This document shows, one piece after another, positions 4,323-9,300 of a stretch of DNA of 64,000 bases; within the stretch, counting starts at the first letter, position 1, and each line of letters begins with the position of its first letter. Made by a program: the position numbers and the translations under genes. The notes beneath the pieces are model-generated. The model had not been told where the DNA came from and did not search any database. It was given only the letters and a program-made list of their open reading frames with translations. Origin of the DNA: Prosopocoilus inquinatus (Eukaryota > Arthropoda > Insecta > Coleoptera > Lucanidae); NCBI GenBank assembly GCA_036172665.1, contig CM069876.1, positions 50,127,001 through 50,191,000 on the forward strand, written 5' to 3'.

Positions 4323-4965
4323 AATCGCCGCTCTTTGCTAATAATAATAATAATAATCATCATTTCTTTCTTTTTTTTGGCTTTGTTTGGCCAAAGAATA
4401 TATTTCATTCTTCTCTCGTCCTACTCTGTCACCTTTCAAACCCCCGATCGCAAGTTACAGTTTATTTTTTGAAAAAGAAAAAAAAAACTTCAAAACGAAA
4501 ATCCGTGTACACTGCCGTCGACAATTTTGTCTGCCACATTAATTATTAACGGGCGCACGATAACACCACGTTTATTTTAATTATATTTATTTTTTAATTT
4601 AATTTATGTATCTGTCAAGTTCGTCACGCGTATATATAGAGTACCTATCACAATCGATTTGATTCGTCGGCGTGCGATTTCGTTCGGACGCGAACGAATA
4701 ATAAATTACAGACCGGAACGCACTCTCACGTTTCGTAATTTACGCGCCGCGCTCCGATATGTTCACATGCAGATTTAATAAACAGATGTCTGACTAGTCA
4801 TTACTGCGGGCCAAATTTGAGGGCCGAATTTGCATGATTACGCCCCATGTGTGCGTGCGTGTGTTATTTTGCAGCCGGGCGCTCGTTGGCTCCTCGAATT
4901 TCCGGGCAAAACACGCCGTCGTTGTTGTTGTTGTTGTTGTTATTAGACACAGGCGAGTCGATTAT
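4323..4965. other. Non-repetitive spacer with microsatellites
   Basis: Contains an (ATA)n run near 4339-4356 and a (GTT)n run near 4918-4941. Otherwise it is AT-rich sequence without a convincing open frame. A TATATATA-type box near 4631 and a GTGTGCGTGCGTGTG stretch near 4849 are visible but support no gene call. Confidence 0.5.
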
Positions 4966-5257
4966 GCGAAACGCGTGTCAACAAATATCGAATGCCTGCA
5001 TAATTTCGGTTGCTCGTTGCAAATGAATTCCACCGCTCGTTTGTCAACAAATGTTACGCTTCAATCAAAAATTTAATTTTTTTCTACGCAACCAGCAAGA
5101 TCATGTTTCACGCCTCGATTTAGTTTTGTGGTGCAATTCGCAGATGTTTTTTTTTTTACCGGCCATAAATATTTTTTGCTTTGATTTCACCGAACGGTTT
5201 AAACAGCGACGTCTTATGATCGTTTCTTGACCTGACATTGCGTTTTGGTTTGCAGAG

Positions 5258-5335
5258 GAACTCTCGAGCTACGCTTTTGCTGATGAAGCCCCAAGCAGGG
5301 CTGAAACAGCTGCACAGAGGCTGCTCGAGGTTTTC
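5258..5335 (+). ncRNA. Type I hammerhead ribozyme motif, copy 1 (cleavage site mutated)
   Basis: Core CTGATGA at 5280-5286 is followed by stem II, AGCCC (5287-5291) pairing perfectly with GGGCT (5298-5302) around a 6-nt loop, then GAAA at 5303-5306. Stem III is the self-complementary CAGCTG (5307-5312). The site that should read UH is C-A (5313-5314), so the conserved U is lost in this copy. Stem I pairs CTTTTG (5274-5279) with CAGAGG (5315-5320). It continues beyond an internal loop as CTCGAG (5263-5268) with CTCGAG (5324-5329). An internal loop in stem I facing the stem II loop is what natural hammerheads use for tertiary contacts. The first stem II pair is A-U rather than the usual G-C. 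Confidence 0.72.
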
Positions 5336-5707
5336 ACTGCAATCAAAAACGATTTGCAACAATTGTTTTATTTTTGCCATTTGCGAAGCGCGTGTCAACA
5401 AATATCGAAAGCGTGCATAATTTCGGTTGCTCGTTGTAAATGCATTCCGCCGCTTGTTTGTCAACAAACGTTACGCTTCAATCAAAAATTTAATTTTTTT
5501 CTCCGCAAGTACGAAGAGCATGTGTCACGCCTCGATTTAGCTTTGTGGTGTAATTCGCAAGTGTCTTTCTTTTGCATGAATCTTAGAATAAACCGGTCAT
5601 AAACATTTTTTGCTTTGATTTCACCGAACGGTTTAAACAGCGACATCTTATGATCGCTTTTTGACCTGACATTGCGTTTTCGTTTACAGTGGAAGTCTGG
5701 AGATACG

Positions 5708-5765
5708 TCTCTGCTGACGAAGCCCCAAGCAAGGCTGAAACAGCTGTACAGGAGCTGCTCGAGGG
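5708..5765 (+). ncRNA. Type I hammerhead ribozyme motif, copy 2 (core intact)
   Basis: CTGACGA at 5714-5720 fits CUGANGA. Stem II is AGCC (5721-5724) with GGCT (5733-5736). GAAA is at 5737-5740, the palindromic stem III CAGCTG at 5741-5746, then U-A at 5747-5748, with cleavage predicted after A5748. The near part of stem I pairs CTG (5711-5713) with CAG (5749-5751), then continues past a bulged G. The distal stem I is weaker than in copies 1 and 3 because the 5' arm has diverged. A two-pair stem III with a palindromic sequence is typical of hammerheads that act as dimers, as reported for Penelope-like elements and retrozymes. All catalytic-core positions that I can check are present. Confidence 0.72.
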
Positions 5766-6127
5766 ATTCGCTGCGATCAAAAACGATTTGCAACAATTTT
5801 TTTTAATTTTACCATTCGCGAAGCGCGTGTCAACAAATATCGAATGCGTGCATAATTTCAGTTGCTCGTTGCAAATGCATTCCGCCGCTTGTTTGTCAAC
5901 AAATGTTACGATTCAATAAAAAATTCAATTTTTTTCTTCGCAACTACGAAGAGCATGTTCCACGCCTCGATTTAGTTTTGTGGTGTAATTCGCAGATGGT
6001 TTTCTTTTTGCATATATCTTAGAATAAACCGGCCATAAAAATCTTTTGCTTTAATTTCACCGAATGGTTTAAACAGCGACGTCTTATGATCGCTTCTTGA
6101 TCTGACATTGCGTTTTGGTTTGCAGGG

Positions 6128-6209
6128 AAACTCTCGAGCTACGCTTCTGCTGATGAAGCCCCAAATATGGGCAGCTGAAACAGTTGTACAGAGGCTGCTC
6201 GAGGGATTC
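6128..6209 (+). ncRNA. Type I hammerhead ribozyme motif, copy 3 (stem II disturbed)
   Basis: CTGATGA lies at 6150-6156 and GAAA at 6177-6180. CAGTTG (6181-6186) forms stem III, and U-A at 6187-6188 gives a proper cleavage site. Stem I is strong: CTTCTG (6144-6149) pairs with CAGAGG (6189-6194), then CTCGAG (6133-6138) with CTCGAG (6198-6203). Stem II keeps GCCC/GGGC (6158-6161 with 6169-6172), but extra bases at 6173-6176 separate it from GAAA. This probably weakens or abolishes activity. Each copy has a different defect, so the ancestral unit was presumably intact. Confidence 0.68.
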
Positions 6210-6404
6210 ACTGCGATCAAACACGATTCGCAACAATTTTTTTACCATTTTTACCATTTTTCGCAAGGGCATTTCATCGCTTGCTTGGGAACTGGATTGG
6301 AAGTTTATTTTAAAACGTCCAGACGATCGTAAAATTCTAGCGACGGACGTCTCTCTCTTTTTTTTATGATATGAGTTCCCGCGAATTACTATTTTGTTGC
6401 ACGT

Positions 6405-7255
6405 ATTGATGTCGTCACGATTTAATTTTGTGGTGCAATTCGCAAACAGCTCTTTTTTGCACACATCTTGGAATACATCGGCCATGAAATATCGTACGAA
6501 TCGCGACGTTTGGCATGTTTTTTTATTGCCTCAAGCAAACAACATCGCCTCGGAGTTTCTATTTTTGGTTTTGATTGCACCATCTTTCGCAAGCGCATTT
6601 CATCGAAACGAACAGATTAAGTTGCGTTCGCATTTGACATTTCATGCGATCGCTCGTCCCTACGTCAGCTTGCACTCGATTGGGTTTCTGATGTTGTCAC
6701 GATTTAGTTTTGTGGTGCAATTCGCAAACAGCCTTTTCTTTGCATACATCTTAGAACACATTGGCCATGAAATATCGTACGAATCTCGACGTTCGGCATT
6801 TGTTTTATTGCCGCGAGCAAACAACATCGCCGCGGAGTTTATGTTTTTAGCTTTAATTGCACCATCTTTCGTAAGCGCAATTCATCGCAACGAACAGATT
6901 AAGTTGCGTTGGCATTTGACATTTCGTGCGATCGCTCATCCCTAAGTCAGCTTGCACTCGATTGGGTTTCGATGTTGTCACGATTTAGTGTTGTGGTGCA
7001 ATTCGCAAACAGCCTTCTCTTTGCATACATCTTAGAATACATCGGCCATGAAATATCGTACGAATCTCGACGTTCGGCATTTGTTTTATTGCCGCGAGCA
7101 AACAACATCGCCGCGGAGTTTCTGTTTTTGGCTTTAATCGCACCATCTTTCGCAAGCGCATTTCACCGCAACGAACAGATTAAGTTGCGTTCGCATTTGA
7201 CATTTCATGCGATCGCTCATCCCTACGTCAGCTTGTACTCGATTGGGTTTTGATG
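6405..7255 (+). repeat. Tandem array, 282-bp unit, three copies
   Basis: The CACGATTTAGTTTTGTGGTG block recurs at about 6417, 6699 and 6980 (periods 282 and 281). It shares the GATTTAGTTTTGTGGTGCAA segment with the hammerhead array, so the two families are related or have exchanged sequence, but no ribozyme core is present. Because 282 is a multiple of three, one + frame stays open from 6394 to 6945 (183 codons, two ~94-residue hydrophobic repeats). The third copy is one base shorter and continues in another frame (6909-7253). No known domain is recognisable, and I do not call this a gene. Confidence 0.85.
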
Positions 7256-7280
7256 TTGCCACGACGTTTTCGCTTCGTGC

Positions 7281-7730
7281 GTTAGGGGGGGAGTTAAGGT
7301 CAGTTTTGGCTTTATTAATTTGCGACGCGCCTGGAGCACTCAGTCGTCTTGTGGTGTCCCCAGGGCCTGGTTGGTGTAAGCCGAGACTCTGCGGTGTACC
7401 CGCTTGAAGGACGGCACACATTTTGGTTATTGGTGGGGAACCTTTGGGGAGGTTTTCTCGAGTGTACACACGGATTAAACCGACTATACCGTGGCGTACT
7501 TGGATAAATTTGTTTTATTCATGAATCTTAGCGAATATATTCGCGTATATCAATTTTTGAACTCAGTTTGTCAGCTATTGCGTAGCCCTGGAGGACTGAA
7601 ACTCATCCGAATTGTCTCAGCCTCGTCCCCGTTGCTCGGAACGGGTATCTTTGCGACTTACGTTCTCTTTCACTAGCGCAAATTACTATTATTGTGGAAC
7701 TTGTCTTCCTCTTCGCTTACAAGCTTTCTG
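7281..7730. mobile_element. Array-tail module, copy A
   Basis: This segment begins GTTAGGGGGGGAGTTAAGG, just after the 282-bp array ends. It aligns in blocks with 17544-17899: a TTTATTAAYTYG block, a CTGGAGCACTCAGTCG-like block, a TTGTCTCRGCCTCGTCC-like block near 7612, and CTTACAAGCTTT at the end (7716-7727). Its minus strand carries AATAAA at about 7311-7316. In both places the module directly follows an unrelated tandem array. It therefore looks like the terminal part of a mobile element that carries internal tandem repeats. The element class is not recognised. Confidence 0.6.
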
Positions 7731-9300
7731 GAGATGGCGTTTTGTTCTTTTATTTATTTATTTTTTTTGAAAAAAACTGCTCTGCCCCCATTGTTTTTCA
7801 TCTGCGAATGTTTAGGTTACAGCTAAGGTTAGAATTACTTTCGTGCATACGCCCCGCGCCGATACGAAGAGAATCTAACCGTTTTTCCCCTGAAGAACGT
7901 AGAGAGAGCGAAACGTCACTTCGATCGACTGGACCGCCAAAATTTCTCGATGAAACTAATTAATCACCGGTCGCGGTCGGGTCGATTCGGCCTCGCCTTT
8001 CCAAGCAAGCGAACGTGTCTCTAGTTTCTCAGGATGTTAGGAGGCAACTGCCCCCCCCCCCCCCCCTCCTTCCCCGGCTTCCCCAAAATAAATTAGAGGT
8101 TGGCTAAACGAAATTTACTCATCACAGGCGAAATGTTTGGGTCCGTTGCAATTAGTTACCGCTGGCTTCTGTTTACCTAATACAAATTACGCCGAGTCCA
8201 TTAATTAGGAGCGGGGGGGGGGGGGGGGAACTATTGAGAGGATCGGGCGTGCGGTTCGCAAATTAAGACAACGGGGTTGAAAGTTTAATCAGTTTTGCGG
8301 ATGGTGGAGGGAGGGGAGAGGATTATGAGGAGTTTCGTCCCCGTAAGCAACGGAGTTCCAGATTTAAATATCCTCGAATTTTATTTTTATTTGTTTGGGG
8401 GGGGGGGTCTGTCTTATTTCTCTCGTCGTAAATTTCGTGCATTTTTTTTTTAAATCAGCTTTGCCTAAGTTTGTTTGTCACCAAATGGAAAAAAAAAACA
8501 ATGCGGTTCTTGTCGGGACTGGCAAATGAAATTGACAATCGAGTGCCACGATTTAGTTTTGTGGTGCAATTCGCGGACAGTTTTCTTTTGCATACGTTTG
8601 AAAATAAACCGGCTATTAAAAAAATCGTAAGAATCCCGTTATGGAATATTTAAAACTGCGACTTGAAATAACGTGTTCGGCGCCGAACAATAAATAAATG
8701 AATAAGAAAATAATAACGAAACAATTGTTAGCTTGCGGTGATAAGAATGAAACCGGAACGGTTTTAATTAAAATCGAGTCCGGATCTGGGATTCGGGTTT
8801 CTTGCGTTTCCGGCCCACCCCCCTCGACCTCGACTTCTATAAGTCGCCGCAGCCGCCATTAAGATGTATTTATTCATGGAAACTTATAATGAAATTTGCC
8901 GCTCGGCTGAAAATTACGCCGAGAGACAATCGTTCGGAGGTTAATTAAGGCGAGTCTTAGAGACCGAGGAGGAATTCCGAGTCACCAAATCAAGGAGGGC
9001 GATTATTTTTAATACATTATGAAATAGGTTTGCCAATTTGGAAAAACAAAAATTACATGCCGAAACTCGAAACAACCCGAAGAAGCACATTCTGGAATAC
9101 AGATAAGAATTACTGCAAGCCATGAAAAGATAAAGCACGTTTGGTTATGAGGTTGTGGACAAGAAAAACTAAATTTGGACGGACCGCGACATCTATTGAG
9201 GAATAGAATCCGAATGTAGAACGTGACGCAAGTCAAAAGTTTCAAAAATTTTAGATAGTTATGATGTGGAGCGCGGAGGGTGGGAGGGGGGTTGAATCTG
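7731..9300. other. Mostly unique, AT-rich sequence with homopolymer runs
   Basis: Holds a run of 16 C (8051-8066), 16 G (8213-8228) and 11 G (8397-8407). A short solitary relative of the 282-bp unit lies at about 8547-8625 (CGATTTAGTTTTGTGGTGCA at 8549). No open frame with protein-like content was found. Several ATTAATTA-type stretches between the runs look like ordinary intergenic or intronic sequence. Confidence 0.5.

Follow-up and report, generated by a model that had tools for sequence, protein, structure and literature searches.

The window, the whole 64,000-nucleotide stretch of Prosopocoilus inquinatus DNA analysed here, contains three tandem type I hammerhead ribozyme (HHR) motifs that are real and represent a kind of mobile ribozyme element already known. 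Very probably, an HHR retroposon inserted into a local satellite monomer, the composite was amplified and the locus was duplicated, leaving the array ribozymes as decaying passengers. The inserted element is best filed as a new family of HHR-bearing, SINE-like retroposons of the retrozyme class, near SMalpha and the animal non-LTR retrozymes, and the whole family deserves more attention than the array, which is not supported as a working retrozyme.

The array lies at 4966-6259 on the plus strand, about 1.3 Mb from the end of the 51.5-Mb contig, and was delimited by tandem-repeat detection, which gives a period of 435, and by alignment. The original prediction had placed it at 4966..6300; the start stands, but the end is near 6259. 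Its three units (4966-5382, 417 bp; 5383-5817, 435 bp; 5818-6259, 442 bp) are 88-91% identical to one another in the alignment, and each is composed of a satellite monomer and a 175-180 bp HHR element. The element copies, whose ends come from comparison with dispersed copies flanked by target-site duplications (TSDs), are on the plus strand at 5192-5366 (about 175 bp), 5626-5801 (about 176 bp; positions 46-240 of the search query are the part common to the dispersed copies) and 6062-6240 (about 180 bp, with a 3' end placed to within a few bases).

Read along the plus strand, each unit has a stem I interrupted by an internal loop, then CUGANGA, stem II and GAAA, then a 2-bp stem III closed by a tetraloop, and lastly the strand that completes stem I; CTGANGA starts at 5280, 5714 and 6150. 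These motif positions, together with the homologues described below, confirm the three predicted hammerheads, and the cuts are again predicted after 5314, 5748 and 6188, spaced 434 and 440 apart. Copy 1 (5261-5330 with stem I, plus strand) has C at U16.1, giving GCA instead of GUA; UA precedes the cut in copies 2 and 3, two of the three as predicted, and CA in copy 1. Copy 2 (5695-5764, plus strand) has an intact core, with one C.A mismatch in stem I and one mismatch in stem II. Copy 3 (6131-6204, plus strand) also has an intact core, together with a 4-nt insertion in stem II and a stem III of CAGTTG, and the palindromic stem III claimed for every unit holds for copies 1 and 2 (CAGCTG) but not for this one. 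A stem I change described as compensating (CTTTTG/CTTCTG against CAGAGG) is in fact one-sided, from U.G to C-G. The internal loop in stem I and loop II (CAARCA/CAAAUA) are both present as potential loop I - loop II contact partners. In the type I fold, with three helices and stem I open, the stems of copies 2 and 3 are weakened, and all three window ribozymes have defects. The array would be a passenger with weak activity, which its ribozymes may still keep, or with none.

The satellite origin of the rest of the unit is seen next to the array. A 281-bp satellite array that lacks an HHR lies at 6407-7264 on the plus strand (tandem-repeat detection and alignment), and is a relative of the unit with the insertion site empty. 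Most of the non-element part of the 435-bp unit runs collinear with it (local scores 104-127 vs shuffled maxima of 66-71); a single stretch of the 281-bp unit is missing from the 435-bp unit. Joined across the insertion point, the left flank ..GCTTTAATTTCACC and the right flank ACCATTCGCGAAGCGC.. give sequence that is uninterrupted in the 281-bp unit. The nine joined flanks score 35-67 against the 281-bp array, with a shuffled maximum of 31, and control junctions reach up to 47 (mean 31, n=73); six of the nine true joins fall under this control top, and the three made with the right flank of the third unit (56-67) are the strong case because only these exceed it. The 12-bp sequences that flank copy 2, TTTGATTTCACC at 5614-5625 and TTTAATTTTACC at 5802-5813, both on the plus strand, agree in 10 of 12 letters and are read as a decayed, imperfect TSD; the left-side counterpart at copy 3 is TTTAATTTCACC at 6050-6061. 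Other relatives of the 281-bp satellite occur in the window at 8545-8638 (77-79%) and on another contig (L032:7534-7674, 75% match), and satellite relatives thus exist elsewhere.

A second array, of two units, is found at C8:49.676 Mb on the opposite strand of the same contig, 450 kb from the window. It has its outer flanks in common with the window array and runs on into the 281-bp satellite, and one of its two hammerheads is changed in both CUGANGA and GAAA. The history of the locus would begin with the insertion of a short non-autonomous retroposon with a type I hammerhead into a local satellite monomer, making a TSD of about 12 bp. The resulting 435-bp composite monomer would then have been amplified in the usual way of satellites, with a final duplication of the locus 450 kb away.

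The same HHR element is dispersed on contigs C1-C12. Rfam RF00163 lists eight matches in the genome, seven of them above its cut-off, and near several of these there are additional hammerheads that closely resemble the window ones. A DNA search of the genome with window positions 5580-6030, in which the best 40 of 2507 candidate loci were scored, lists 76 matches and provides 38 dispersed loci picked by DNA similarity and not by ribozyme motif. This set was used in place of the core count of the first loci, which was set aside as partly circular because some of those loci had been chosen by the Rfam model. In the 38 loci, 48 ribozyme copies span the young reference, 16 partial BLAST matches that do not span the ribozyme being left out; 29 loci have one spanning copy, eight have two and one has three. 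The descriptor finds 35 of the 48 copies intact, 11 with an intact core and some other defect, and two that fail the core pattern, so that the genome search for further copies, as proposed with the original prediction, does find intact ones elsewhere. Fifteen arbitrary 10-kb pieces of the genome hold two strong and one degenerate model matches, with family fragments in six; extrapolated genome-wide, this density suggests thousands of copies, with a very wide error. The HHR pattern has no match in either the viral or the prokaryote contig collection, and a literature search with partial coverage of the Penelope-like HHR literature found no published report of this element family.

Insertion ends are clear in part of the dispersed copies. 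A second regular expression was used for the TSD test, on 47 copies in 37 loci, with 200 swaps of the 3' flank for that of another locus as the control. Exact TSDs of 9-15 bp at near-uniform element ends flank 16 of the 47 copies, whereas the swaps give 0.3 on average and never more than 2, and in an earlier sample TSDs of 9-13 bp were seen in four young copies among 15 HHRs examined of 20. The TSD-bounded elements measure 166-193 bp in 15 of 16 cases, the other being 471 bp. Since the inserted copy spans the cut site, the RNA copied back would have had this junction uncut or rejoined, and the template for such insertions would be an uncut or re-ligated (circular) RNA.

Tandem copies generated through a unit-length circular RNA of 434-440 nt and re-inserted, as in a genuine retrozyme, would explain why three HHRs stand one unit apart, and the unit size and GC (0.40-0.41) match animal retrozymes as described in the available part of PMC7229834. 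Head-to-tail pairs also exist in the dispersed family. Among its 10 adjacent HHR pairs, six are minus-then-plus with heads together, four run in the same direction and none is plus-then-minus; the same-direction pairs, in four of the 38 dispersed loci (L046, L061, L070 and L072), are about 305-325 bp apart, L011 has a further pair 312 bp apart, and the 471-bp TSD-bounded element is that of L070 and contains a head-to-tail pair. Such an origin of the window array is nonetheless unlikely. The whole 435-bp unit occurs only in the window and in its duplicate on C8, and matches outside these two arrays all fall within query positions 46-240 (window 5625-5819), which is the element part (among the matches listed, from the best 40 of 2507 candidates). 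Much of the unit is satellite in common with the HHR-free neighbour, and the 15 TSD-bounded copies of 166-193 bp carry the cut site inside them, away from their ends. The 434-nt unit RNA of the window has no structure beyond that of its shuffles (z -0.8), whereas the 312-nt dispersed unit of L011 is much more structured than its shuffles (z -8.7), for the most part because its stem I runs to about 40 pairs. The claim of a retrozyme tandem whose transcripts are cut to unit length is therefore unsupported: each unit consists of a satellite monomer into which an element of 175-180 bp has inserted, and the ribozymes are defective. What survives of the retrozyme-like interpretation is that the array hammerheads are homologues of a mobile, retrozyme-class family.

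The hammerhead core is conserved in this family. Over the 48 copies, changed letters number 3 of 528 in the core, 99 of 1150 in the inner stems, 98 of 574 in the loops and 215 of 3351 outside the ribozyme, and no core letter is changed in 45 copies. Counted against the majority letter with subfamily-diagnostic sites removed, the figures are 3/528, 53/1054, 12/382 and 71/2961. Core and outside then differ with p=0.005, a value that ignores the relatedness of the copies and is overstated because the 48 copies, from the best 40 of 2507 loci, share ancestry. Per site, the inner stems are more variable than the outer arms. As judged from these letters, the element family is conserved for its ribozyme and presumably makes self-cutting RNAs.

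Pairing in the family was counted in two sets of copies. The 5-bp stem II exists in two sequence types, AGCCC/GGGCU and GGUCC/GGACC (the second inferred from decayed copies). Two-sided changes affect 11 of 21 pairs in 12 copies chosen by Rfam or by motif, a count with a shuffled mean of 6.6 that only 3 of 500 shuffles reach; further pair types are not in excess of shuffles, the observed counts being reached by 204/500 and 406/500 shuffles in the 12- and 11-copy sets. In the same two sets, paired cells make up 94 and 97% of inner stem I and 96 and 95% of stem III; the values for stem II are 86/83 and 97/82%, the last pair meaning 97% paired and 82% in the two top pairs in 11 copies. The outer arms are paired at 65-74%, and at 69-74% in the set of 11. 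In the MFE folds some of the core is taken up in pairs (GCUG with CAGC). For six copies, a fold with the core kept open lies 2.8-6.8 kcal/mol above the MFE, and copy 2 still has no inner stem I in that fold; folding in isolation therefore does not favour the active form. In the RNA of a young copy, a stem I of about 40 pairs would form a hairpin that bears the hammerhead at its tip. This RNA is expected to cut itself, and the very long stem could hold the cut products together. Many copies have a short, palindromic stem III, which would allow dimers, as described, in the available parts of the sources, for newt and Penelope-like hammerheads (PMC6155905, PMC7761336).

These features bear on the idea that the family is a DNA transposon or foldback element whose hairpin resembles a hammerhead by chance. 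A near-perfect long hairpin and inverted arrangements of copies speak for such an explanation, but it is very unlikely here: the TSDs vary in length from 9 to 15 bp, the insertion ends look, by eye, unlike terminal inverted repeats, and changes spare the core letters but affect both strands of stems I and II.

Selection on the array itself, that is, a satellite kept for its ribozyme, has been proposed for the pDo500 satellite of Dolichopoda cave crickets, which like the window array has an HHR in every satellite unit, there of about 500 bp (PMC2837043, in the part available). In the window, 32 of 33 core letters over the three hammerheads match the young copy, and 10 of 11 core positions are unchanged in all three units. 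The pDo500 hammerhead is more conserved than the rest of its unit and mostly foldable in that account, in contrast to the window, where HHR-specific conservation is not seen among the three units: variable sites amount to 14/70 in the 70-nt HHR vs 33/240, 8/55 and 10/52 in the other unit parts. With three of three window copies defective and one of two core-broken in the duplicate, the probability that the array was kept for its ribozyme is very small.

The covariance-model check that accompanied the original prediction came out negative for Rfam. RF00163 gives no match in the window at the gathering threshold, none in 4900-7400 at E<=10 and none around copy 1 (5255-5335). Of the L003 copies at 46, 358 and 1501, Rfam reports just the last, although the one at 358 is intact. 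Its silence on the window therefore says little, because it also misses intact copies in the same genome, and Rfam was rejected as arbiter on this ground. Against a model of which they are themselves members, copies 1, 2 and 3 reach 84.7, 76.8 and 76.1 bits. A loose HHR descriptor finds copies 1 and 2 in the window, missing copy 3 because of its stem II insertion, and gives nine matches in 1500 random first-order Markov sequences of 64 kb, which makes chance unlikely even without homologues. A chance motif would agree with the missing Rfam match, but those nine matches in 1500 speak against it and the 35 intact homologous copies among the 48 examined have already refuted it, leaving it next to no probability.

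Among known systems, the SMalpha and Sjalpha elements of schistosomes are likewise short, dispersed and SINE-like with a type I hammerhead, and have relatives that are satellite-like repeats, as far as described in the available part of PMC8490949. The beetle family is likewise a short dispersed element with an HHR and TSDs, and the loop CAAAUA of some copies is the loop of the Rfam type I consensus. The likeness is one of description, and the 166-193 bp size of 15 of the 16 TSD-bounded copies and the very long stem I of young copies are unlike SMalpha and Sjalpha. Animal non-LTR retrozymes, in the available part of PMC7229834, have a type I HHR with a 2-bp helix III and tetraloop (described for invertebrates), a GC below 45%, TSDs longer than 4 bp and Penelope-like elements in the same genome. 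All of these are found here, with a GC of 0.40-0.44 in the family sequences and TSDs of 9-15 bp, as are some head-to-tail pairs about 310 bp apart. The mobile form of such retrozymes is an HHR in tandem repeats of 150-450 bp. Of the 38 dispersed loci here, 29 are single-copy and, where TSDs are found, bounded away from the cut site; the tandem form of the window array seems to be owed to the satellite. Penelope-like elements with minimal HHRs, as described in part of PMC7761336, are a kind that is present in this genome, but the window element codes for no such protein, and its HHR is canonical rather than minimal.

The Penelope-like elements are of interest as a possible partner. At least 150 GIY-YIG matches occur in the genome (the best 150 of 2232 candidates). 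One Penelope-like locus was read and has an open 788-codon frame with RVT_1 and GIY-YIG domains, followed by an HHR-like motif that has a palindromic TACGTA stem III and is repeated 2.6 kb apart; folded in isolation, this motif is no better than its shuffles (z -0.7 and -1.0). Penelope-like elements have been proposed as movers of animal retrozymes (PMC7761336, in the available text), and since this genome holds one with an open RT/GIY-YIG frame and an HHR-like motif of its own, such elements are a likely mobiliser. Among the 150 matches listed, 48 pairs of neighbours lie within 10 kb, and 47 of them are minus-then-plus, a head-to-head arrangement common to GIY-YIG neighbours and HHR pairs. 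A Penelope-like RT/GIY-YIG protein of the same genome probably copies the HHR element, the link between the two being limited to their co-occurrence and like arrangement. The window element, at 175-180 bp, is too short for RT and GIY-YIG and is itself no Penelope-like element. No RT frame was recognised beside the first HHR loci, where open frames and short motifs were read in L009-L015, L017, L018 and the window (L016, a near-duplicate of L013, being left out), and the long frame of L012 has only a weak DDE_3 match, below the Pfam cut-off.

It is possible, though less likely than not, that the two form a matched pair, in which an abundant TSD-bounded, SINE-like HHR element with many intact ribozymes is mobilised by a Penelope-like element that has both an open RT/GIY-YIG frame and a minimal HHR-like motif. 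If this is true, the open question of what moves animal retrozymes becomes directly testable. The family lends itself to a direct test of movement, since one and the same genome offers copies with clear ends, ribozymes that are intact and a candidate partner enzyme. Hammerheads in animal satellites have so far been read as retrozymes, and the ends, the TSDs and the HHR-free satellite relative point to another route, in which a hammerhead retroposon enters a satellite and is amplified as a passenger.

Several further observations concern these loci. The Penelope-like end at L073:3091-3127, TCGAGGGGTTTTCTCACT, looks by eye like the 3' arm of the HHR element, CTCGAGGTTCTCACT; BLAST at E<=1 reports no match. 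Shortly past the Penelope-like end, L074:404-1025 on the minus strand has reading frames that we take to resemble a mariner-type transposase. L013 and L016, at two places on one contig, are 99.85% identical over 9.9 kb and may be a recent duplication or an assembly duplicate. A more distant hammerhead-like type, scoring 31 and 33 bits, is found at L015:848-916 (plus) and L015:9348-9416 (minus), in two very similar inverted stretches 8.5 kb apart. Tandem arrays are very abundant over the whole window (1-64000, 50 entries), and its CpG observed/expected ratio is 1.56 vs 1.16 in arbitrary genome pieces. The window also has, at 2823-2876 on the minus strand, 54 bp identical to part of a dispersed HHR unit, a fragment of another copy. 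About 7 kb past the window end, at L018:7053-7205, lie two opposed copies of the HHR element, one of them without part of stem I.
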